Assembly (NCBI GenBank): GCA_024653345.1 | Contig: JANLFV010000010.1 | Location: 1 to 49,770 of the forward strand | DNA: 49,770 nucleotides | Origin: Candidatus Acetothermia bacterium | Lineage (GTDB): Bacteria; Bipolaricaulota; Bipolaricaulia; RBG-16-55-9; JANLFV01 | Direction: 5' to 3' | In this document: piece by piece, positions 10,550 through 49,770 of the stretch | Layout of the letters: every line of letters begins with the position of its first letter | How positions within the stretch are numbered: position 1 is the first letter of the stretch | The notes under the pieces: generated by a model | Database searches by the model: none | What the model was told of the DNA's origin: nothing | What the model saw: only the letters and a program-made list of their open reading frames with translations | Position numbers and translations under genes: made by a program

Positions 10550-12310
10550 TCACTTCCCACTTCGCTCGCGCATCTGCCGCCGCAGCTGCTTGGTGGCGTC
10601 AAGATCAATCTTCGGCGGCTGCCCATCCAGCACTACGCCATATTCTGCCTTTGCAGCTGCCAGGGACACATAACCGTTGATCACGTCCTGGAGCACCAGC
10701 TGGGGATCCCGCTCTAGGGGGGAGCCATAGCCTCCTCCGCCGCCGGTCTGGAAGCTTACTACGTCGTCGGGCTCGAGGGGTAGATTAGAGACCTTTCGCC
10801 AACGCTCCTCACGGCCGTCGCGGCGGTAGACCACGGTAATATTGGTCTTCGCCTCCTTTCCCCCGAACAGCCCCCACGGAGGGGTATAGTTCACGCGGTC
10901 TGTCGTCACCGTCAGCCCGGCCTTATGACCGATGATCCGGTAGTCTCGCCTGACCCCCAGGCCACCGCGGAACTTGCCCGGGCCGCCGGAGTCCTGGATC
11001 AGCTCGAAGCGCTCCACACGCCAGGGGTAGCGCACTTCAGCCACCTCGGCGGGGACATTGTAAGTATCGCCCAGATCCATGGAGAAGAGGGCCGATTCAC
11101 CGTCTTCGTAGGGCTTGCCGCCGTAGCCGCCCCCATCAGGTTCAGCGCAAACGTAGTATTTCCCCGTCCGGGGGTCAGTCCCGTAGATGAAATCGGCCAT
11201 GGAGTCACCGAAGTGTCCGGCGCGGACGCGATCGGGGATGGCAGGGGCGAGAACTTTGAGGATCACATCTGGAATCGTCGTCGTGGGTGCTGGCCACATC
11301 GCTGTGGCCGCCGGGAAGCGGGGGTTGAGGAAGCTCCCCTCTGGGACGATGATCTTGAGCGGGCGGAAGAAACCCTCGTTATTGGGCAGGTGGGGTGTAG
11401 TGACGATCTTGAACCCATATCTGGCGGAGGAGATCGTTGAGGGGAGAGGAACGTTCATTGGGCCGCGACACTGCCGATCCGTGCCGGTGAAATCGATGGT
11501 CATCTCCTCATTTTTAACAACTATGGTGACCTTGAGCCGCAGCTTCTCATCGAGAGGTGCATCGTCGTTCCCGTCACCGTCCAAGATAGCCTCGGCGGAG
11601 TAAGTGCCATTGGGAATGCGCCGGATGGCCGCTCGAGACATCCGTTCCCCCTGATCAAGGATCTCCCGGATTGCTCCCAAGGTGACGCCGAGGCCGTATC
11701 TCTCGATGACCTCACCCAGGCGCTTGCTCCCTGTGCGGACCGCGGCGATCATCGCCCGGATGTCCCCCAGCACGGCGTCCGGGACGCGGGTGTTCGCTCG
11801 GATCAGCCGCAGGACATCCTCATTCGGCCTCCCTCCCACCACCAACTTGACTGGCGGAAGCCGGAACCCCTCCTGAAAAATCTCTGTCGTATTGCTATAC
11901 CACCCACCAGGGTAAATCCCGCCCATATCGACCGTGTGGCCGCGGAAGGCTGCCCACCCGCGAATCTCTCCTTCAAAGAAAGTCGGGCAGAGCACGACGA
12001 TGTCCGGACAGTGCGTCCCGCCGCCATTATAGGGGTCGTTGCAGAGGATGATATCCCCAGGCAGCAGGTTCTCGCGCCCGATGGTAGCATAAGTGGCATT
12101 AACCGCGTCAGACAGATTGGCCAAGAAGATTGGCAGGCCGGGCGTCTCCGCGACGAGGTTAGCTTCACTATCCAGTATTCCGCAGCTGAAGTCCACGACC
12201 TCATAGAGGACTGGGCTGTAGGCCGCCCGCTCCACAGTCCTCCTGATGTCACGACTGGCTGCGATCAGCCGATTGCGGATAACTTCGAGGGTTATTGGAT
12301 CTACCTTCAT
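10550..12310 (-). CDS. hyuB: Hydantoinase/oxoprolinase subunit B (HyuB), tandem copy 1
   Basis: A HyuB-family subunit of about 586 aa. Conserved stretches are MKVDPITLEVIRNRLIAASRD at the N-terminus, NDPYNGGGTHCPDIVV and AFRGHTVDMGG around residues 90-130, the glycine-rich SGGPGKFRGGLGVRRDY, and the terminal QTGGGGGYGSPLERDP. HyuB pairs with HyuA to couple ATP hydrolysis to ring opening or carboxylation. The ATG at 12310 is preceded by GAGGT at 5-nt spacing; an upstream TTG at 12322 is less likely. By eye it is about three-quarters identical to the neighbouring copy at 12323-14119, so it is a tandem duplication. It lies 12 nt from that gene and 3 nt from the DUF3830 gene. Confidence 0.95.
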   Translation of the reverse strand: MKVDPITLEVIRNRLIAASRDIRRTVERAAYSPVLYEVVDFSCGILDSEANLVAETPGLPIFLANLSDAVNATYATIGRENLLPGDIILCNDPYNGGGTHCPDIVVLCPTFFEGEIRGWAAFRGHTVDMGGIYPGGWYSNTTEIFQEGFRLPPVKLVVGGRPNEDVLRLIRANTRVPDAVLGDIRAMIAAVRTGSKRLGEVIERYGLGVTLGAIREILDQGERMSRAAIRRIPNGTYSAEAILDGDGNDDAPLDEKLRLKVTIVVKNEEMTIDFTGTDRQCRGPMNVPLPSTISSARYGFKIVTTPHLPNNEGFFRPLKIIVPEGSFLNPRFPAATAMWPAPTTTIPDVILKVLAPAIPDRVRAGHFGDSMADFIYGTDPRTGKYYVCAEPDGGGYGGKPYEDGESALFSMDLGDTYNVPAEVAEVRYPWRVERFELIQDSGGPGKFRGGLGVRRDYRIIGHKAGLTVTTDRVNYTPPWGLFGGKEAKTNITVVYRRDGREERWRKVSNLPLEPDDVVSFQTGGGGGYGSPLERDPQLVLQDVINGYVSLAAAKAEYGVVLDGQPPKIDLDATKQLRRQMRERSGK

Positions 12311-12322
12311 ACTAGACCTCAA

Positions 12323-14119
12323 TTAAGTTTGAGCATGCTTCTGAACCGTGCACTTGCCCTGTCTAGGGAACCCTTCCCGTTTCTTACGTCTCATCTCGTT
12401 GGTAGCCTTGATGTCCACGATCATTTGATTCTCTTCGATTACGACTCCATATTCCTCTCTCGCTTTTTCCCCCGATACATACCCATTTATTACGTCTTGA
12501 AGAACCCTCTCCGGCGCGCGCTCCAATGGTGAACCATAACCCCCTCCTCCACCGGTCTCGAAGCTCACTACATCATTAGGGGCCAGTGGGAGGTTAGAGA
12601 TCTTCCGCCAGCGCTCTTCTCTACCATCGTTGCGATAGACCACGGTGATGCTCGGTCTCCCATCCTTTCCGCCAAACAGGCCCCAGGGAGGACAACAATT
12701 GACGCGATCCGTCGTCACTGTAAGCCCCGCCTGATGCCCGATGATCCAGTAATCTCGCCTGGCTCCCAAGCCCCCGCGGAACCGCCCAGCCCCACCGGAG
12801 TCCTGTATGAGTTCAAAACGCTCCACGCGCCAGGGGAATCTCACCTCTTCGACTTCAGCGGGCACGTTGTATGTATCCCCTAAGTTCATGCAAAACAGTG
12901 CGCACTCTCCATCCTCATCGGGCTTCCCACCGTAGCCGCCAGCATCACCTTCAGCACAGACGTAGTACCTGCCAGTCCTGGGATCTGTCCCATAGATGAA
13001 ATTGGCCATGCAATCACCGAAGTGCCCTGCCCTTACCCGATCGGGTATCGCCGGGGCCAATGCCTTCAGGACTAGGTCTGGAATCACGTTTGTCGGCGTC
13101 GGCCACATCGCACATGCAGCCGGGAATTGCGCCTTCAGTAAGCTGCCCTCCGGGATAATGATCTTCAACGGCCGGAAGAAGCCCTCATTGCTAGGTAGAT
13201 TCGGCGTGGTCACAATCTTGAACGCATACCGGGAAGCACAGATGGTCGATGGCTCCGGGACGTTCATCGGGCCACGAGACTGCTGATCTGTCCCCGTGAA
13301 GTCCAGAGTGATTTCGTCGTCCTCAACGATTACGGTGACCTTGAGCCGCAGCTCTTCGTCTAACGGCATATCATCATTGCCGTCGCCATCGAGGAAGGCT
13401 TCAGCGGAATAGATTCCATTGGGAATGCAGCGGATAGCTGCCCGGGACATGCGTTCCCCCTGATCGAGAATCTGTTGAAGGGCCCCCAGCATGACCCCGA
13501 GGCCATACTTCTCTATGGCCTCCAGGAAGCGCCTGCTTCCCGTCCGCACGGCAGCGATCATTGCCCGAATGTCACCTAAGACAGCGTCAGGAACACGACT
13601 ATTGGCCCCGATCAATCGGAATACGTCTTCGTTTGGCTCACCCTCTACTAAGATCTTGACTGGTGGAAGTCGAAATCCCTCTTGGAACACTGAGGTGGTA
13701 TTGCTATACCATCCTCCAGGGTAGATGCCCCCCATGTCCACGGTATGGCCACGGAAGGCTGCCCAACCATAGATCTTGCCCTCATAGAACGCCGGGCAGA
13801 GGACCACGATATCCGGGCAGTGGGTGCCGCCCCCGTTGTAAGGGTCATTACACAGGACAACATCGCCAGGCTTCAGTTTCTCGCGACCGATGGTATGATA
13901 TGTAGACTTAATGGCATAGCCCAAACTTCCGAGGAAGGAAGGAAGTCCTGGGGTCTCAGCGATTGTGTTCGCCTCGCTGTCAAAGATCCCGCAGCTGAAG
14001 TCAACCACCTCGTATAGCACCGGGCTGTAGGCAGCACGCTCCACAGTCCTGCGGATGTCCCGGCTTGCCGCGATCAGGCGGTTACGGATAACCTCTAGAG
14101 TAATCGGATCTACCTTCAC
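12323..14119 (-). CDS. hyuB: Hydantoinase/oxoprolinase subunit B (HyuB), tandem copy 2
   Basis: The 598-aa HyuB starts with GTG at 14119 behind GAGGAGGAAC. It shares MKVDPITLEVIRNRLIAASR, NDPYNGGGTHCPDIVVLCPAF, FRGHTVDMGGIYPGGWYSN and GGGGGYGSPLERAP with copy 1. The copies differ mainly at surface-type positions and at the C-terminus, where this copy ends KKREGFPRQGKCTVQKHAQT. It follows HyuA after 9 nt, so it is the most direct HyuA partner. Two HyuB genes with (at least) two HyuA genes in the same operon suggest two enzymes of related specificity, or a mixed complex. Confidence 0.95.
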   Translation of the reverse strand: MKVDPITLEVIRNRLIAASRDIRRTVERAAYSPVLYEVVDFSCGIFDSEANTIAETPGLPSFLGSLGYAIKSTYHTIGREKLKPGDVVLCNDPYNGGGTHCPDIVVLCPAFYEGKIYGWAAFRGHTVDMGGIYPGGWYSNTTSVFQEGFRLPPVKILVEGEPNEDVFRLIGANSRVPDAVLGDIRAMIAAVRTGSRRFLEAIEKYGLGVMLGALQQILDQGERMSRAAIRCIPNGIYSAEAFLDGDGNDDMPLDEELRLKVTVIVEDDEITLDFTGTDQQSRGPMNVPEPSTICASRYAFKIVTTPNLPSNEGFFRPLKIIIPEGSLLKAQFPAACAMWPTPTNVIPDLVLKALAPAIPDRVRAGHFGDCMANFIYGTDPRTGRYYVCAEGDAGGYGGKPDEDGECALFCMNLGDTYNVPAEVEEVRFPWRVERFELIQDSGGAGRFRGGLGARRDYWIIGHQAGLTVTTDRVNCCPPWGLFGGKDGRPSITVVYRNDGREERWRKISNLPLAPNDVVSFETGGGGGYGSPLERAPERVLQDVINGYVSGEKAREEYGVVIEENQMIVDIKATNEMRRKKREGFPRQGKCTVQKHAQT

Positions 14120-14128
14120 TGTTCCTCC

Positions 14129-16162
14129 TCAGCTAAGGGAGATGACTAGATTCCCGTATTGGTCGACAGAACATGTCTGGTCGCTCTCCACAACTGTGGT
14201 AGCTGTAGGCTCTTCGATGATCGCCGGCCCAGGGATCACGTTTCCGGCAAGAAGCCTGTCGCGCCGATAGATGCTGAATTCCTGATATCTGCCGTTCCCT
14301 ACATAGACTCGCCGCTTCCCTATCTTGGCCTGGGCGGCAGGGTTCTGTCGGCCGCGCTTAAGCGCTTGCAGGATAGGCTTCTTCACCTTACCGATCCCGA
14401 TGACCTTCAGCGAGACGATCTCTTTAGCCTCGTCCGGAGCGTTATGCCCGTATACCCGGTAATGAGCCTCATCGAAAGCCCTACCCAAGCCCTCCTTATC
14501 GGCGTCCGTCATCTTCGCCGGGGCCGGCACTCCCAGGGTATGCTCTTGACCTGAATAGCGCAGGTCCATTTCGTAAGTGAGCACTATGTTCTCATTCTCG
14601 ATGTTCTCGCGCTCAAAGAGTCCCTTGACCTGCCTCTCGAGATCCCTAAACATCTGGTTGATCTTGGTGGCATCGGCCCCGTTCAAGGGCTCAATGTAAG
14701 TGCGCGCGAAGTCATGACGCAGGTCGGCCATGAGCATTCCCCAAGCAGAGAAGACTCCTGGGAAGACCGGGACAATCACCGTGGGAATGCTCAGTTCTCG
14801 AGCGATGGCCGTGGCGTGTATCGGGCCAGCCCCCCCGAACGCGACCACGGCAAACTCGCGCGGATCGTAGCCACGCTTCACCGTCATCGATTGGAGCAAG
14901 CCCGCCATATTGGTGTTGACGATCTTGATAATGCCTAAGGCGGCCTCATCGGCCGTGAGGCCGAACCGCGAAGCGATCTTCTCGATCGCCTGTTGCGCCA
15001 ACTGGGGCGAGATTTCCATCTCTCCTCCCAGGAAGTATGCCGGATCGAGTATCCCGAGCTGGAGGTTGGCATCTGTCACCGTAGGCTCGCTCCCACCTGC
15101 CATATAGCAGGCCGGGCCAGGGTCTGCTCCCGCGCTCTGTGGCCCGACATGAAGCGCTCCCGCTTCATCGATCCAGGCAATGCTGCCCCCGCCAGCACCA
15201 ATCTCTCGCAGGTCGACCACTGGCAGGAGGAGCGGGCGCCCCTCGACGAGATATTGGTCGGTCGTCTCTGGCAAACCGCCCCTGATGATCGACGTTTTTG
15301 CCGTAGTCCCCCCCATGTCATAGGAGATTACGTTCTCGTAGCCGAGCAACGCCGCGAGCTGTGCCGCCCCGATTGCTCCGGCTGCTGGCCCCGACTCTAC
15401 CATGGCGATCGGGATCTCGCGCGCCACGGCCGAGGTCATCACGCCACCATTCGACTGCATGATCTGGAGGTCTCTGCCGAACCGGCGCTCTGCTAACTGC
15501 TGCTCTAGGCTCCGGAGGTAGGTTTGCACCACCGGCATGACGTATGCATTTTGAACTGTGGTGCTCGTCCGCTCATATTCATAGTAGCGCCTTGTAATAT
15601 TGTGTGACAGAGATACAGTTATCCCGGGGCAGTGCTCGCGCAAGTGCTGGCCGACCTGCTGTTCATGGTCCGGGTTGGCGTAAGCGTTGAGGAAGCAGAC
15701 GGCCACTGACTCGACGCCCTCACGGCGCAGCTGATCGATGATCATTGCAAGGTCATCGGCATTAAGGGGAACCAAGATCTCGCCGTCGGCCGCGATCCTC
15801 TCCGTGACCTCAAAGCGCAGGTAACGTGGAACGAGCGGCCGCGGCTTCCTATAGAGGGCGTCATACATCTCGGTGCGATTACTCCGACCGATCTCCAGCA
15901 CGTCGCGGAACCCCCTCGTTGTGATCAAGGATGTCTTCGCGCCTTTCCCTTCAATCAGGGCATTGATCACTACGGTAGTCCCGTGGACGAAGAACGAGAC
16001 TTCATCAAGAGAGATGCCAAACTTCTCGACGCTGCGCACCGTGCCGATGGCTGGATTCTGGGGTGTGGAGAGAACTTTGCTGACCGAAAGCGCACCGCTA
16101 TCTTCATCGAGCATGACCCCATCAGTGAAGGTCCCGCCAACATCCGTGCTTATCCTGAACAT
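14129..16162 (-). CDS. hyuA: Hydantoinase/oxoprolinase subunit A (HyuA)
   Basis: The complete protein of about 677 aa has an N-terminal ASKHA nucleotide-binding motif (DVGGTFTDGVMLDE), FVHGTTVVINALIEGKGAKT, GFRDVLEIGRSNRTEMYD, the metal/nucleotide region SYDMGGTTAK, IGAGGGSIAWIDEAGALHVG, GADPGPACYMAGG, and a C-terminal domain with the FGGAGPIHA motif and the final AIIEEPTATTVVES. It is the ATPase subunit of a HyuAB enzyme acting on a cyclic amide such as a hydantoin or 5-oxoproline. Start ATG at 16162 is preceded by GGAAG at 5-6 nt; an in-frame TTG lies at 16174. It is the first enzyme gene of the operon, 39 nt after the regulator gene. Confidence 0.95.
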   Translation of the reverse strand: MFRISTDVGGTFTDGVMLDEDSGALSVSKVLSTPQNPAIGTVRSVEKFGISLDEVSFFVHGTTVVINALIEGKGAKTSLITTRGFRDVLEIGRSNRTEMYDALYRKPRPLVPRYLRFEVTERIAADGEILVPLNADDLAMIIDQLRREGVESVAVCFLNAYANPDHEQQVGQHLREHCPGITVSLSHNITRRYYEYERTSTTVQNAYVMPVVQTYLRSLEQQLAERRFGRDLQIMQSNGGVMTSAVAREIPIAMVESGPAAGAIGAAQLAALLGYENVISYDMGGTTAKTSIIRGGLPETTDQYLVEGRPLLLPVVDLREIGAGGGSIAWIDEAGALHVGPQSAGADPGPACYMAGGSEPTVTDANLQLGILDPAYFLGGEMEISPQLAQQAIEKIASRFGLTADEAALGIIKIVNTNMAGLLQSMTVKRGYDPREFAVVAFGGAGPIHATAIARELSIPTVIVPVFPGVFSAWGMLMADLRHDFARTYIEPLNGADATKINQMFRDLERQVKGLFERENIENENIVLTYEMDLRYSGQEHTLGVPAPAKMTDADKEGLGRAFDEAHYRVYGHNAPDEAKEIVSLKVIGIGKVKKPILQALKRGRQNPAAQAKIGKRRVYVGNGRYQEFSIYRRDRLLAGNVIPGPAIIEEPTATTVVESDQTCSVDQYGNLVISLS

Positions 16163-16201
16163 GACCACTTCCAAGCGATCCCCGAAGCAGCGTCCTGCTC
16201 T

Positions 16202-27412: not shown

Positions 27413-29034
27413 CTAGAAGCTCACCCCCGCCTCGACGGTCTGGACAAAGGAGTGGTCTTGAAGATCTAAGGCCGTATTGCTAGTGAGGCTGAGGCCCTTC
27501 CAGTTGCAGGCCAGCTGGAAGCGGATCAGAGAGAGTTGGAGCGGCACGCCGAGGGCCTCCTCCGCGGTCCAAACGAAGGAGCCGGTGAAAGTGAGCCCCT
27601 TGAGGGCCCGCCTGAGCCGCAGCTCCTGCCGGGCGAGGTGGGAAGCGGCGACCTTCTCGTTAGCCCCATCGCTATCGATGTCCCAAGGATCGGCTCGAAG
27701 GTGCTGGTGCTCCGGAGGTCGAGCTTATCGAGGGCGAACTCCAGGTAGACCTGGCGGCGCTTCAGCTCGAAGTGCTCCTCCTCGGCGCCGTCATCGTCGC
27801 CATCATACTTCAGAGGGCCGTAGTAGTCGTAGAGCCGGAAGAGGCCGTCGAAGGGGAAGGTGAGCCTGAGGGTGTAGTAGTCCAGCTCTAGCTCCAGCTT
27901 GTCGCCAGCGGCGATCAGGGCCTTGAGCGCAAGCGGGACCCCGAGAATGGTGGTGGAGTAATCGAGCTCCATAGAGATCCGCTGGAGTCCTACCTGGTTG
28001 AAAAGAGTAGTGCTGCGTATCAGCACCCCTTCGATGGAGAGGCCGCTGATCTGGAGGGAGCCGGAGTCGAAGGCCAGGGCCGAGTCCGAGGAGAACTTCA
28101 GTGCGAGCTTGGCCTTGATCCCTCCCGAGGTCTCGCCGTCAATGATGAGGGTATCACGGCTAGCGAGCGAGGGCGTCTGAGCCGGCCCGAGATCGTAGAG
28201 GCTGAAGTAGTTGGTGAGCTTGAGCCGCGGGTCTAGCATGGCCGAGGCGCTGAAGAGCATCGACTTGAAGGCCAGCTCGGTCCCGCCGGTGAAGATCAGA
28301 TCCTGGCTGAGCCTGGTTCTCGCCGGGATAGCGAGAGGTTGGAGGATGAGCTCGATCGCGTCGCTGAAGTCCAGGTCGGGGAAGAGCGCGGACCGGACCG
28401 TCCCCGTGATGGTGTAAGAACCCGGGGCGGCCTCAGAAGGGACATAGCCGATATACCTGATCTCCTCGCGAGCTCCCGGGGCTGCCAAGGTGACTGTCCA
28501 TTGAAGCGATTCCTTAGCGATCCTCACCCCCGGGGGCGCGATCGGCTCGATGGGCCAGCCGCGGGGGAGCTCCTCGAGCAGGGTGAACTCGACGCCCGGT
28601 GGGATCGGCTGTAAGGCCTCGATGATGATCGTCACCGCGAAGGCCTCGCCCGGGCGGACGGGGGAGGGGAAGGAGCGGAGGACCTTGACCCAATCGTTTG
28701 AGGCCAGCGTCCGCTTCATCGCCGCTGCTATGGCCTCTCCCATGGGGAAGGTCGCCTCCCAGCCGAGCCAGACCGTTCTCAGCCCCAGGTTGGAGAAGAA
28801 AAGTGTCCCGTCGAAGCCGAGGCCTTCGTAGTCCAACCCGAGGTCCAGTTGGGAGTAGAGCCCGAGGTCGAAGGCCGAGGTCTCGTAGCTCGTGGTCTGA
28901 GGGACCAGCTCGGCCCCGATCTCCCACCTGCCGGAGAGTTCCTCGCTCAGGGCAGGATAGGCCAGGACCCAGAAGGCAAGAGCGAAAATACCGACCTTGG
29001 ACGCTCCTCTGAGCAGTAACCCCAGCCCCGCCAT
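27413..29034 (-). pseudogene. Secreted/outer-membrane beta-rich protein, frameshifted near its 3' end
   Basis: The gene encodes about 540 aa if the frame is restored. The N-terminus has a signal peptide (GIFALAFWVLAYPALSEE), then short amphipathic strands, a CARDB/DUF11-like domain (about 105-235, VRPGEAFAVTIIIEALQPIPPGVEF, LPRGWPIEP), and a long series of alternating strands typical of a beta-barrel. At 27682-27684 a GGG run seems one G short. The given frame runs out at 27526 in Ser/Arg-rich nonsense, whereas adding one base gives ILGDIDSDGANEKVAASHLA and further good strands to TAG at 27413, ending VEAGVSF. A C-terminal Phe is the usual barrel-assembly signal, so the restored end is probably the real one. 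Sequencing error, slippage or decay are all possible. Confidence 0.75.
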
Positions 29035-29187: not shown

Positions 29188-32100
29188 CTAGTCACACGGC
29201 CCACTCAGGGGGATCGTTGCCTCTACGGTCGTTGAGGCTCCCAGCTCGTCGGTCACCGTTAGAGTAACGGGAAGTTCTGCTGTCCAGTACCAGCCCGATG
29301 CCGAGTCCATTGTGCAAGACAATGCTCCTGTATCCACCCCGGAGAACTGGAAACTGCAAGAGCCCGATTGGCAGTAATCTCCCGTTGGGTCTTGACCGTG
29401 ATCAGTGTAGCCCGAGACTGGAGGGGGCGGTGGCTCGATGGGCTCGATGGGCACAGGACCACCGTAGGTGGGGACCGAGAACTCCCAGTCCCAGGTGACC
29501 TCATCGCCGTTGGGATCGGCGCTGCCATGCCAAGCCCCAAGGCCATGGAAGTCCATCCATTGTGTAACATTGACCATTGCTGAGAGAGTCACGGAGTAGG
29601 ATCTCTCCAAAACGAACTGGCCAGTGCCTTCAGAACTGAAGACATAGGTTGTGTTGATGCGATACGTGCCCAGCGGGCCCTCGTAGGGTGGATGCAATCC
29701 ATAAGAGATGCTGCTCTCTCCGGAGCAACTGGCCAGATCGATCGTGCCTCTCCAGTAATTCGGTCCTTGTTCGTCAACGTTGAGACAATCTCCCTGGACG
29801 CCGGAATACTCCCATCCCTCGGGCAAAGTCTCCGTTATCTCGAGCTGTCCGAACACTGACTCGACTTCAATCCTGACCAGGCCGTCGACCCAGGGAGCGA
29901 TGTTCGCGCCGCAATCGGGCGCTCCATTCACCCGATGGATCCAGTACCTTGAGGGGGGGCCTCCCGGCTTCACAGCTTCCAGGTGCACAACCTCATAGCA
30001 AGAAAAAGGATAAGCAGCCTCACTGCTACTCCCTAGATCCTCCCACTCGAAGGCGGCATAGGGCGGGATGTTGGCGATGGTGACCGTCTGGGTGGTGTTG
30101 GAAGAGGGATAGTCCTCGCCGCCCGCGTCGTCATCGTCCCAGACGGAGAGCTGAACTTCAAAGTCTCCGGCAAGGAGGTATCGTGGATGCCTAGGTCCTG
30201 GCCAACCGGGGTCTGGCACAGAGAGTCCTATTAGCTTCGGCTCGCCAACGCTGAGGCAGCCCTCCTCCGGTTCCCAGCAGGAAAGAAGAGGATTAGATAT
30301 CCATTCCCACTCGACAACCCGGGACCATTGCCCACTGTCATACGAGAGGTCCTCGAAAGCAATGACACCGGCGTCGGGCGGGATCTCCGGCTCCTGGCAG
30401 GCCAAGTTGCCAGCGCCTATTTCGGCGCAGCTTGGCAGCAAATCCGGCGGCTGCTCGAAATGCCAGGAGAAGTCGGCCACCGGCGGGACATTGAGCACTA
30501 AGAAAGGTCTTGTGATAGAGTCGCTGTTCCCCGAGGCATCCCAGACTGTTAGGGTCAGTTCGAAAAAGCATTCATCCTCAAACCAGGCCGTCGGATTCTG
30601 CTCCTCGGAGAAGAACGAGCAGTGGTATGGATCCCACCATGGGGGCGGCTCAGGCCCTGGCTCAAAGTGGGGGAAATACTCCGCCCCCTCCCACCGCCAG
30701 GTGACGATCTCCCCGCTCTCCACATCGGCCTCATAGGTTGAGATATCGCCGTCGTCATCAGTGACGGTGAGCGCGACATGATAGGTCCCGGCCTGTCCAT
30801 ATTAATGGGAGGGGTTCTGCTCCTCGGAGCTTTCTCCATCACCAAAGTCCCAATGCCAGCTTACGATTTGACCATCATGGTCGACTCCCGCTGCGGAGAA
30901 GTAGATCGCACCTGCACCAGAGCGGTCTTCAAAGAGGACATCATCCAGCTCAGTCGGGACATCGAATGGGACGTCGAGGCCGGCCATCAGCTCAGTCGGG
31001 TCAAAGCCGGGGGGATAGCTTCCGTGCGTCTCGCGGTCCACCGTCCAGGTGAAGTCCGCTCGAAGCTCTCCTGCCTCCCAGGTGAAGCTCGCCTCCGGCG
31101 GGACATTGAGGACGGTGATCTCCTTGATCACCTCGGCCTCGGCACCGTCATCGTCGGCCACGATCATGCGGACGGTGTAGATCCCGTCATCGGGGTATTG
31201 ATGGCCGAGCTGGTTCCGCTGGCCCGGCGGGCCGAACTCCCGCGCGCTCTCCCATTCCACGACCGTCCCATCCCCAAGCTCCCAGCGGACCAGGGCGATC
31301 TCCCCGTCTGGGTCCGCGAACTCCGGGGTGAAGAGGGCCTCTTCGAGGTCCGTCGGGGTCAAGGGAGCCCAGGTGAAGTCGGCCTCCGGCGGGCGGTTCC
31401 CCACTTCGACCATCCCCTCCGCGGTGGCGGTGCAGAAGTCGTTATCCACGACCGTGAGTGTGACGGTGTAGCGCCCTTTCCGGCCATAGCGATGCTCCGG
31501 CTCCCAGGCCCGAGAGGTATTCCCATCCCCGAAGGCCCAGCTCCAGGCGACAAGGTAGCCGTCGGGATCATGGGCACGGTTGATGAAGAAGATGAGCTCA
31601 TCGGTCAGGGGACTGGGATTAGAGAGCTCGAACTCCGCCAGTGGGAGCGTCCCCGGCAGGCATTCGTGGCCCTCCAGGCCTTCCACCGCCTCCGGCAGAG
31701 GCTTCTCGCCATACTGGATGGTGTAGTAGTCCTCGTCCACCGCCGCCTCTTTTGCTAGGGTCGAGGCCCCGGTCACATAGATCCGGCCGGCCGGGCTTGC
31801 GGCCACGGCATAGGGGATGTCGTCCCCCAGGCCGCCGTCGTAGCGGACCTCCCAGAGCTCCTCCCCTTCTGAGTTATACTTGACCGTCCGGTAGTCCCAG
31901 CCTGCCGCGCCCTTGTGGCCGCCAGTTACGACGATTTCATCCCCTTGGAGGGGCTCCTTCGCCGGGAGGGTCGCGACCCCTTGGGGCTCCCCGAGGAAGG
32001 GCTCCTGCCAGATGAGCCGGCCGGTAGGGCTATATTTGGCGATCCCACCCGAGCCGACGATGAGCACGCTCCCCTGAGAATCAAGGGCCACGCCCGTCGG

Positions 32101-32730
32101 CTCGCCCGGACAAGGAATCTGCCAGAGCCGCTCTCCAGCCTGGAGGTAATATTCCGCAATCCCGGCAGACCCGATGACTACAACTATGTCGCCGGAGCCG
32201 GCCAGGCCAGAGGGCTCGCCGGGGTAGGCCAGGCTCGCGAGCCTCTCCCCTGCGGGGCTGTAGACCTCGACGCCCGCGGGGCCACAGACGACGAGCCGAT
32301 CGCCTGCCATGGCCGCGACCTTATGAAACTCGCCAGCTACGGCCCAGAGCCGCTCCCCCGCGGAGGTGAGCTTGACCAAGCCGGCTGTGCCGGCCACGAC
32401 GATATCGGCCAAGGAGTCGGTCGCCACGCCATAGGCTATCCCGGCGTAGGGCGCTTCCCAGAGCTTCCGCCCCGCCTCAGAATACTTGATGATCCCTGAG
32501 GTTCCGACGACGACCACCTCTCCACGAAAGTCCACGGCCAGGCCGTAGGCGATATCCTCTGTGGCATTATGGCCGTCGCTCCATATCGCGAGCGGGACCG
32601 GGGGATAGGCCATCATCTGGGCGCTGGTCAGGTGATCCAAATGGCCGGGGAAGAGCAGGGTGAGCGAACCGATGATGGCCAACCCGATTGACCGGATGAG
32701 AAGAGAGCTAAACCCCTTCTGCGCCTCCAT
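29188..32730 (-). pseudogene. Secreted propeller-PKD protein split by an in-frame TAA
   Basis: One reading frame of about 1180 codons is interrupted only by TAA at 30804-30802. It starts with a signal segment, then a beta-propeller of repeated blades (SGGIAKYSPTGRLIWQEP, PAGVEVYSPAGERLASLAY), then at least four PKD domains (WSWAFGDGNTS, WHWDFGDGESS) and a Cys-containing C-terminal part. The TAA falls inside a PKD motif: NPSH, stop, then YGQAGTYHVALTVTDDDGD in the same frame. In a sister domain the corresponding position reads GHQYPDDGIYTV, so CAA to TAA (one C-to-T change) explains it. ATG at 32730 has GGAGGAAGGAGGG upstream. A c-di-GMP-I riboswitch precedes the gene, so the product is likely a signalling-controlled surface or adhesion protein. 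Confidence 0.8.
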
Positions 32731-32770
32731 CGTAAGACCCTCCTTCCTCCTTTTCGAGAGGGCCTACGCT

Positions 32771-32796
32771 GAAGGATGCGGTGACGAGCATCCTTC
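32771..32796 (-). promoter_or_regulatory. Switching hairpin (expression platform) downstream of the aptamer
   Basis: On the minus strand GAAGGATGC pairs with GCATCCTTC around an 8-nt loop (9 bp). Its 5' arm reuses the bases (32793-32787) that would close the aptamer P1 stem, so the two structures exclude each other. There is no T-run, so the output could be translational or act further downstream, near the ribosome-binding site at about 32740-32755. Confidence 0.55.
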
Positions 32797-32922
32797 CGCA
32801 GCCCGGCCGACAGGCCCCTGCACCTCTGCCGCAGCCCGCAGGGCTGCTCATATGGTGCAGGCGGAGCCTGCCTCGTGGCTTTGCGCCCTCACGTTCCCGT
32901 GAGTTTGCCCTTTCGGGATACC
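32787..32922 (-). promoter_or_regulatory. Cyclic di-GMP-I (GEMM) riboswitch aptamer
   Basis: The minus strand carries the two conserved GEMM core strands, GGGCAAAC (32910-32903) and GGCGCAAAGCC (32887-32877). They are joined by a 6-bp stem CTCACG/CGTGAG capped by a GNRA loop, GGAA. CCACGAGGC follows, as in family members, then two further hairpins (GCAGGC-TCC-GCCTGC and GCAGCC-CTGC-GGGCTGC). A P1 stem GGTATCC (32922-32916) with GGATGCT (32793-32787) closes it. The base matching the ligand-contacting G20 of Vc2 is G (A-GGG-C context), favouring c-di-GMP over cyclic AMP-GMP. The second half is longer than usual, so the 3' boundary is tentative. It lies between a good promoter and the propeller-PKD gene. 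Confidence 0.8.
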
Positions 32923-32928
32923 GGCTCA

Positions 32929-32958
32929 CTTATACCATATCCCTTGCAGCGGAGTCAA
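32929..32958 (-). promoter_or_regulatory. Promoter of the riboswitch-propeller-PKD gene
   Basis: TTGACT (32958-32953), 18-nt spacer, TATAAG (32934-32929), with a TG one base before the -10 (extended -10). Initiation is expected near 32922, exactly where the aptamer begins. Confidence 0.75.
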
Positions 32959-47309: not shown

Positions 47310-49770
47310 CTATCTCAAGACCACCAGCTTCTTGACTTCGCTCCTGATCATCCGGCCGTCGTAGCCCCGGGCGGTCACCACATAGAGGTAGACCCCGTTC
47401 GCGAGTGTCCGGCCTGCGCTATCCAGACCCTGGAAGGCCAGGCGATTCCCGGCCGTCCGCTGCTGGAAGAGGCGCCTCCCGGCGAGGTCGAAGACCTCCA
47501 GCTCGAGCCCGGCGATCCCTGAGCCCTGGACCTCAAATGTCGTGACAGCGCCGCGCGTTCGGCTGACGATGTTGTCTATCCGCAGGGGCTGTGGGACCGG
47601 AGAAACTCCGGCCCCGCTCACCGAGCCCCCGGAGATCCACAGCTCAATCAGCTTCAGCATCTCGGCGTCGCTGATCGTCTTCCCGCCTGTGCCTGGCACA
47701 GCTTCGCCCGAGATCCAGTATTGGATGGCCGTGAGGATCTCACTGTCTTCAAGGGTCCCGTTGCCGTTGGTGTCGAGGGCTTGGGCGATCGTCTCCTCAC
47801 CACTGGGCGGAGGCAGTGGGCCGATCTCCCCCTCCCAGATGCGCACAGAGGGATCGGAGCGATCGTAAGGTCTCGGAGCGGCGAACCTCCCGCCTTCTCC
47901 GAGAGATGTCTCATAACCCACCGGCAACGCTAAGACGGAGCCATCCGGCTGGATGATCTCCGGGCTTCCCTCGAAGTTGCGCACCGTGACATCCCCACTG
48001 GCGGCGATGGTCAGGCCCACCGTCGACCGCAATCTGAAAACGGCCCGGGCACTGGGGTTGCCGATCGGCGAGCCTTCGAACACGTCCAGGATGATTCCCA
48101 GAGGACCGCTGGCCTTCTTGCCGACCTTCTTGAAGAGCATCTCCAGGGTCTTATCGATCCCTTTGTCCTTGCCGATCTTCTCCACCATTAGGCGCGTGGT
48201 AGAGGCATCCTCCATCTGGTAGTCTCGCAGTTGTTGGAAATTCCACGGACCTAGAGTCAGCTCCCAGTATAGATCCGGGGAGCCGCTTTCATAGCCAATA
48301 GCATAAGCGGCTCCTGATAACTCCCTCATCACGACTCTGCATCCCTGGAAGAGTCTCAACTTATCCCCGAAATCCCCCTTGATCGCTTGATTGAGGGGGA
48401 GCGGATTGCCGTTCAGCGAGGGAGGCGTTGGTCGCCCATCCGGTCCTATTCCTTTGCTCGTTGCGTATACCGTGAAGGCCGCCTCGATGTTCACGGTGAA
48501 CGGCACCTCCCGCTCCTCCAATTCCCCGAGCTCGTTGACGACTTCTAGCAGGGCCATGAACCTCACAGCCTGCTTCTGCTCGATGAGCTTGACAACATAG
48601 AAGTCATACTGGGCGTCCTTCGTGCCGGGATAATTGTATTCAACGCGATTCAACGGGTCAGACGACGGCCTTGCGGGGTATCTGAAGAAGACTTCCGGCT
48701 GCTGCTTGCTGATGCTGATGCTTGCAATTCCTCTTATGAAAAGCGCCTCATCCTTGACTCTGAACCTGACCCGCAGTGCGACGGGCTCAGACTCACTCAT
48801 TGGCATATCGTATCCAAGTGTGTAAGAGACCTCGATCTCTTCGGAGACAACCTCGAAGAAAGTGCTCTCCTCATCAACGCCGCCGGTAGAGATGCACCTG
48901 GCTTGGACCTCATATGAGCCCGGCGCCGCATCGGCAGAGATGGCCCACTTGGTAGATTGCCACGCTTGGTTCTCTCCCGGAGAGATGGTGTGATCTGTTC
49001 CGACAAAGTTGTAGACCTCTTCTCCCGACGGATCGAGGATCACATACTCGACATGATAGTCTGCCGCTGCTGTCCCCGGATTGGTCAGCTCGTAGATCAC
49101 CTTGACGGTATCTCCGGGGGCGTAAGCCGACTTTCCCATCTCTAGCCTGACGAATTCGACTGCGACCCCGACAGAGATCTCTACACTATCTTCGGCCGTG
49201 CCTCCTTTGCCGTCGGAGACTACGACTCTTATGGTGTGTGTGCCGGTCTCAGGGTTGCGCCAGTTCACATTGGCGCTCGTGACGTTCTGTCTTATCCCGT
49301 TCACATACCACTCATAGGTCAGTGGGTCTCCATCGGGGTCGCTCGCATCTGTCGCGAAGTGGTAGATTACTTCCTCCGGGGTCGGGTTCTCAGTCCAGTA
49401 GGTCAACGAGGCCGTCGGCGGGTGGTTCTCACCGGGTGGAGGTGTGGTTTCACCTCTCAGGTATACTTCCCAGCGGAATGTTGCTCCAGAGTCCCTGTCT
49501 TTGACAACAAGGTAGAGGATGCAATTGCCAGGGGGGCGAGGGGGCATTCCAGTCACAGCCGGACATCCCGGAGGGGATATTCTCCTTCCAGGGCGGAGCC
49601 CAGACGCTACTCTTCCAATAGGAAGGCGCATCGTTATATATCTCATGGGGCTGCCATTCGCCTATCCCCAGGGGTTCGGTATAGAAATCGATCCAACCTG
49701 ATACACCTGTAACCCAGTGTAGTGGACCCCTCGGATTGGACACCTCTGTTAGGGAGGGGTAAGGTCCAAG
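47310..49770 (-). pseudogene. Secreted PKD/CARDB/dockerin-like protein, 5' end off-window, one frameshift
   Basis: The coding frame enters at the right edge (LGPYPSLTEVSNPRGPLHW) and runs as convincing protein to about 49540. There a run of six G (49531-49536) appears one base too long and the frame shifts; with five G it continues through PSPPGNCILYLVVKDRDSG. Then follow a PKD/cadherin-like domain (ASLTYWTENPTPEEVIYHF, TASDPDGDPLTYEWYVNG), a CARDB-like domain (SAYAPGDTVKVIYELTNPG), a large unrecognised middle part, and a dockerin-like Ca site (ALDTNGNGTLEDSEILTAIQ). A FlgD-like Ig/sorting tail comes last (VFDLAGRRLFQQRT, LANGVYLYVVTARG). The terminal module resembles C-terminal sorting or anchoring domains of secreted proteins. 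About 820 residues are visible. An intact gene with a sequencing error is quite possible. Confidence 0.75.

Follow-up and report, generated by a model that had tools for sequence, protein, structure and literature searches.

The c-di-GMP-I riboswitches (GEMM-I, RF01051) have Vc2 as their reference, and its numbering is used here for all aptamer residues. In this class, G20, A47 and C92 contact the ligand and C44 pairs with G83 between the helices, while the Vc2 structure places G14-C93 as the top pair of P1, stacked on the ligand and moderately conserved only (PMC3764141). The class c-di-GMP-I-GGC (RF03167) belongs to the same clan and has a similar core. Vc1 of Vibrio cholerae precedes gbpA and activates its expression, with neither a terminator nor an anti-Shine-Dalgarno to be recognised (PMC4744006), and Bc1 of Bacillus thuringiensis carries a long expression platform 3' of its c-di-GMP-I aptamer, with two Rho-independent terminators (PMC11218506).

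The locus compared with these systems lies in the window, the whole stretch of 49,770 nucleotides that was analysed, from a genome (G000) that is 92% complete; a genome of the same genus (G001, 73% complete) was used as the sister comparison. As in Vc1, a c-di-GMP-I aptamer is combined with a long 5' UTR, a gene for a secreted surface-binding protein and no intrinsic terminator, but Vc1 activates whereas repression is predicted for the leader studied here, which also differs from Vc1 in its explicit arrangement of P1, anti-P1 and Shine-Dalgarno hairpin (PMC4744006). With Bc1 it shares the long expression platform but not the two terminators (PMC11218506). Its core strands, GNRA-capped P2, P2/P3 core, ligand contacts and interhelix pair are those of RF01051 and Vc2, while a G at position 93, two G-U pairs in P1 and a P3 about 50 nt longer set it apart, and no 11-nt tetraloop receptor was seen; from c-di-GMP-I-GGC it differs in that its best match is RF01051. 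A probability of roughly 60% is given to the reading that this is a real c-di-GMP-I riboswitch which ancestrally turned translation off and is now orphaned and decaying in G000. The features, from the promoter to the second gene, are the following.

32929-32958, minus strand: promoter TTGACT-N18-TATAAG, read from the sequence, spacing kept in G001
32916-32922, minus strand: 5' strand of P1, GGTATCC, same letters in G001
32794-32919, minus strand: c-di-GMP-I aptamer (RF01051), 48.7 bits against a cut-off of 35
32888-32903, minus strand: P2 hairpin CUCACG-GGAA-CGUGAG, GNRA loop, from the cmscan alignment, same letters in G001
32810-32873, minus strand: extended P3 arm, exceeding that of G001 by about 50 nt, single copy, boundaries approximate
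32797, minus strand: position 93, G in place of C, which breaks G14-C93, from the count of 121 aptamers
32787-32793, minus strand: 3' strand of P1, GGATGCT, with two G-U pairs to GGTATCC (none in G001)
32771-32796, minus strand: anti-P1 hairpin GAAGGATGC / GCATCCTTC, 9 bp, 5' arm 32796-32788, 3' arm 32779-32771
32732-32767, minus strand: hairpin GTAGGCCCTC / GAGGGTCTTAC holding the Shine-Dalgarno AAGGAGG (32745-32739), equivalent in G001
30802-32730, minus strand: ORF of a propeller-PKD secreted protein, 642 aa (Pfam PKD_4, PQQ_2), ending at an in-frame TAA (30804-30802)
29188-30801, minus strand: continuation of the PKD gene in the same frame past the TAA; in G012 the ortholog forms one ORF of 1306 aa
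27526-29034, minus strand: partner gene, with a frameshift near 27684 by tblastn; its homologs end in ...SF

The promoter named in the preliminary description is present (TTGACT at 32958-32953, an 18-nt spacer, TATAAG at 32934-32929), and its equivalent in G001 is TTGACT-18-TATATT with identical spacing; a generic promoter scan did not call the window's boxes. Aptamer, 9-bp hairpin and purine-rich Shine-Dalgarno follow in this order, and the promoter begins, at the -35 box, 228 nt before the ATG at 32730, which corrects the 247 nt first given. Comparison with the homologous leader favoured the riboswitch: the PKD ortholog of G001 (70% identity) has a 67.6-bit aptamer 53 nt upstream, and its leader retains P1 and the competing hairpin. 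Over its first 46 nt the aptamer region agrees letter for letter between the two genomes; in the gene itself, 76% of nucleotides are identical, as are 69% of codons at same-residue positions. Codon conservation at the gene start was considered as evidence of RNA function and dropped, with 11/14 for the first 14 same-residue codons (p 0.33) and no excess, as was a short overlapping ORF from an ATG inside P1 (MLVTASFSV...), which is absent in G001 and hence not conserved. Because the orthologs of G012 and G006, which are more remote, have short leaders with no aptamer, the riboswitch is particular to the genus among the genomes examined.

The Rfam gathering search, with cut-offs of 35 bits for RF01051 and 59 bits for RF03167, gave a significant match to RF01051 at 32919-32794 on the minus strand (48.7 bits, E 1.4e-6, complete over model 1-87) and within the window otherwise only one tRNA. 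This match and the orthologous leader uphold the c-di-GMP-I riboswitch originally proposed, and the GNRA-capped stem described with it is P2, whose tetraloop is GGAA. The contacts G20, A47 and C92 are all kept in the window, as is A48; the strands GGGCAAAC and CGCAAAG are present along with C92, which shows no variation in a position-by-position count of 121 aptamers (G000 and relatives, 120 outside G000), and both letters of C44-G83 were found in the cmscan alignment. In folding, the leader and gene start were more stable than 200/200 shuffles (z -4.4). An 11-nt tetraloop receptor, a usual but not a defining feature of P3 in the class, was not seen in the window P3, with a crude pattern that also misses it in most short-P3 relatives. 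Class membership by these defining features is virtually certain; the sole tested feature that failed, G14-C93, is usual but not defining.

Position 93 is C in 117 of the 121 aptamers, U in three and G in the window only, and the ligand-stacking pair of P1 is therefore lost. The 7-bp P1 that closes the aptamer reads GGUAUCC/GGAUGCU in the window and GGUAUCC/GGAUACC, wholly Watson-Crick, in G001, with helix energies in a simple model of -8.6 and -10.3 kcal/mol, respectively. The second half of the aptamer had been called longer than usual, and this was accounted for by the P3 extension, which is private to G000, the G001 aptamer being 76 nt in all. Insertion of a repeated element into P3 was rejected, as the 67-nt arm occurs once in the genome. 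Since eight other aptamers also exceed 100 nt, the length of P3 alone is tolerated.

The enzymes of c-di-GMP metabolism were searched in G000 and its relatives. GGDEF was not detected in G000, whereas a search of 20 relatives found it in 18 and missed it in two genomes of 75% and 69% completeness; HD_5 (HD-GYP type) was found in 6/6 relatives searched and not in G000. EAL was found in none of four clade genomes and PilZ in none of eight, G000 among them in both searches. The pathway of G001 consists of two GGDEF genes and one HD-GYP gene. One of the former, flanked by era and a GNAT-like gene, encodes a GAF-PAS-GGDEF protein of 963 aa whose GGDEF motif is intact; this gene order is found in eight relatives (G001, G003, G008, G009, G010, G011, G012 and G013). 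In G000 the cyclase is missing, and only about 75 bp separate era from the GNAT gene on the same contig (L262 8779-8855, G000:C11). The second G001 cluster, composed of an HD-GYP gene, a tandem riboswitch gene, a histidine kinase, a response regulator and an Hpt-REC-GGDEF gene, is missing in G000, where the syntenic stretch gives way to an IS4/5 transposase fragment (L252 3257-3658) and unrelated genes. G000 appears to have lost the diguanylate cyclases and the HD-GYP phosphodiesterase, and another cyclase could sit in the missing part of this genome. Aptamers over the cut-off number one in G000 and nine in G001; two other riboswitch-controlled genes of G001 were sought in G000 and not found, which by itself proves little. 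A degenerate c-di-GMP-I-GGC-like site in G000 (G000:C25:164004-164079(-), L002 1500-1575), about 420 nt upstream of the gene for a secreted 447-aa protein, scores 26.3 bits to RF03167, below the cut-off of 59, with several core changes, and is possibly a second relic.

In the genus, the riboswitch would control a two-gene operon for the secreted propeller-PKD protein and an outer-membrane partner, the latter a probable barrel from the ...SF ends of its homologs. The large PKD surface gene of the preliminary description proved to be a PKD target by its domains but not a single intact large ORF, as the TAA interrupts a frame that stays open beyond it for more than 500 codons, to 29188. Relative to three homologs, the partner gene changes frame at 27685/27682 (tblastn). 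Neighbouring genes of the window, such as those for RNA 3'-phosphate cyclase and RseP, are open and match their families, so that the breaks cluster in the riboswitch operon. The breaks are taken as presumable real mutations, with assembly or sequencing error also possible because the G006 ortholog looks split as well. In G012 and G006, propeller-PKD and partner genes occur as tandemly duplicated pairs (L058 1244-12573; L059 818-9282), whose partner proteins have an aromatic residue at the C-terminus, like outer-membrane barrels. Elsewhere, the window encodes a secreted protein that has Ig/PKD-like domains and weakly matches the type IX secretion C-terminal signal (47310-49646), and genes like those for subunits of caprolactamase and acetophenone carboxylase, next to an ABC transporter operon of the peptide type (10550-16174).

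Orphaning and decay of the window riboswitch are likely: loss of the cyclases and of the HD-GYP phosphodiesterase would have left the switch orphaned and decaying, with both genes interrupted. Present-day control by c-di-GMP is doubtful because no GGDEF or HD-GYP was found and the aptamer and both downstream genes are damaged, and ligand binding itself may have been lost. Any decay would be recent or incomplete, because the 5' half of the aptamer is perfectly conserved. This identity with G001, together with the score over the cut-off, the retained promoter and the completeness of 92%, speaks for a fully working riboswitch, whose cyclase would lie in the unassembled 8% and whose gene breaks would be assembly errors. 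Such a riboswitch is unlikely, since the site that the ancestral cyclase has lost is syntenic and contiguous and not a gap, the HD-GYP gene is missing as well, no other of the 121 aptamers has G at position 93, and the breaks are clustered in the riboswitch operon among open neighbours.

The competition of P1 with a hairpin, as first proposed, was found again in the orthologous leader: the 5' arm of the 9-bp hairpin contains the 3' strand of P1, and the hairpin of G001 has 11 bp, that of the window 9 bp with two further pairs outside them. No G+C-rich hairpin with a U-run, and thus no terminator-like site, was found in the leader. The missing T-run, for which an unusual switching mode had been suspected, is explained by likely translational control without an exotic mechanism. 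Opening the region between the Shine-Dalgarno and +12 takes 20.5 (G000) and 21.1 (G001) kcal/mol when P1 is enforced, and 11.6 (G000) and 11.3 (G001) kcal/mol when anti-P1 is. In modelling, the ribosome-binding site is thus buried by an extra 9-10 kcal/mol upon P1 formation in both species, because the arm around GCAUCCUUC is released by P1 and can then pair across the start codon. The observed difference was reached by 4/100 (G000) and 3/100 (G001) shuffles of the downstream sequence, and by 0/100 (G000) and 11/100 (G001, a weak control) synonymous-codon shuffles; G000 and G001 are closely related and hence are no independent tests of the model. Anti-P1 is favoured over P1 by 6.2 kcal/mol in G000, and the two are equal in G001. 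The Shine-Dalgarno is largely paired in either modelled state, so that the extent of switching, and even its direction, are uncertain.

From this modelling, even odds are given to translational OFF as the ancestral mechanism. With ligand bound, P1 would form and release the 3' arm of the competing hairpin, and the released arm would pair over the start codon and extend the hairpin that already masks the Shine-Dalgarno; without ligand, the anti-P1 hairpin would occupy the 3' arm and the start would open more easily. In G000, with G14-C93 gone and P1 weakened, the balance would have shifted to anti-P1. Pairing of an anti-Shine-Dalgarno arm with the aptamer letters CGUGAGGGC is feasible on paper but was discarded, as the stable P2 would need opening.

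Activating c-di-GMP-I riboswitches of adhesion genes exist, such as Vc1 (PMC4744006), so a real switch of reverse sense, in which c-di-GMP turns the gene on, or one acting at the transcriptional level, for example through Rho, has some support. It is nevertheless an improbable account of this leader, in which the modelled P1 state hardens the opening of the ribosome-binding site in both species and no terminator is found, and translational designs are common among the relatives.

It is very unlikely that, after deletion of the cyclases, the aptamer was retained for a new purpose, with a changed ligand or as a constitutive, ligand-free structure in a cell without c-di-GMP. That the 5' half is strongly conserved although the genome lacks c-di-GMP enzymes, and that the P1 apex and P3 are altered, would fit such a role, but all direct c-di-GMP contacts (G20, A47 and C92) are unaltered and a recent loss accounts for the conservation. 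Resemblance to a riboswitch by chance alone is of negligible probability, as nothing was found in its support, the window match has E 1.4e-6 and a score over the curated cut-off, and the conserved orthologous leader with 67.6 bits already refutes it.

Other designs were observed at the aptamers of the relatives. An ATG that opens an ORF lies -1 to +7 nt from the aptamer end in 32 of 120 c-di-GMP-I aptamers, with a background of 2-10 per equal-sized window elsewhere; 28 of these 32 ORFs have a signal-peptide-like start, and most are without a normal Shine-Dalgarno (L003, L006, L010, L013, L016, L018, L019, L021, L054, L149, L188 and others). The start codon at these loci seems to lie in or against P1. 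Two anti-Shine-Dalgarno designs recur after other aptamers, namely CCUAAUGGU...ACCAUUAGGAGGU and CCUCCAAG...CUUGGAGGUG, at L012, L025, L161, L201 and L216 and at L030, L162, L163 and L176. Tandem c-di-GMP-I aptamers, 12-14 nt apart, precede single secreted-protein genes at L054 4931-5108, L055 429-607 and L169 151-330.

The aptamer class is already well known, and the novelty is the context, an apparently orphaned riboswitch in early decay beside a sister that keeps the pathway. G001, with the enzymes and nine aptamers, and G000, without the enzymes and with one aptamer, form a natural before-and-after pair, which allows a test of how a riboswitch and its genes decay after loss of the second messenger and which parts of the aptamer go first. 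With no PilZ in the eight genomes searched, riboswitches may be a main c-di-GMP effector in this clade.
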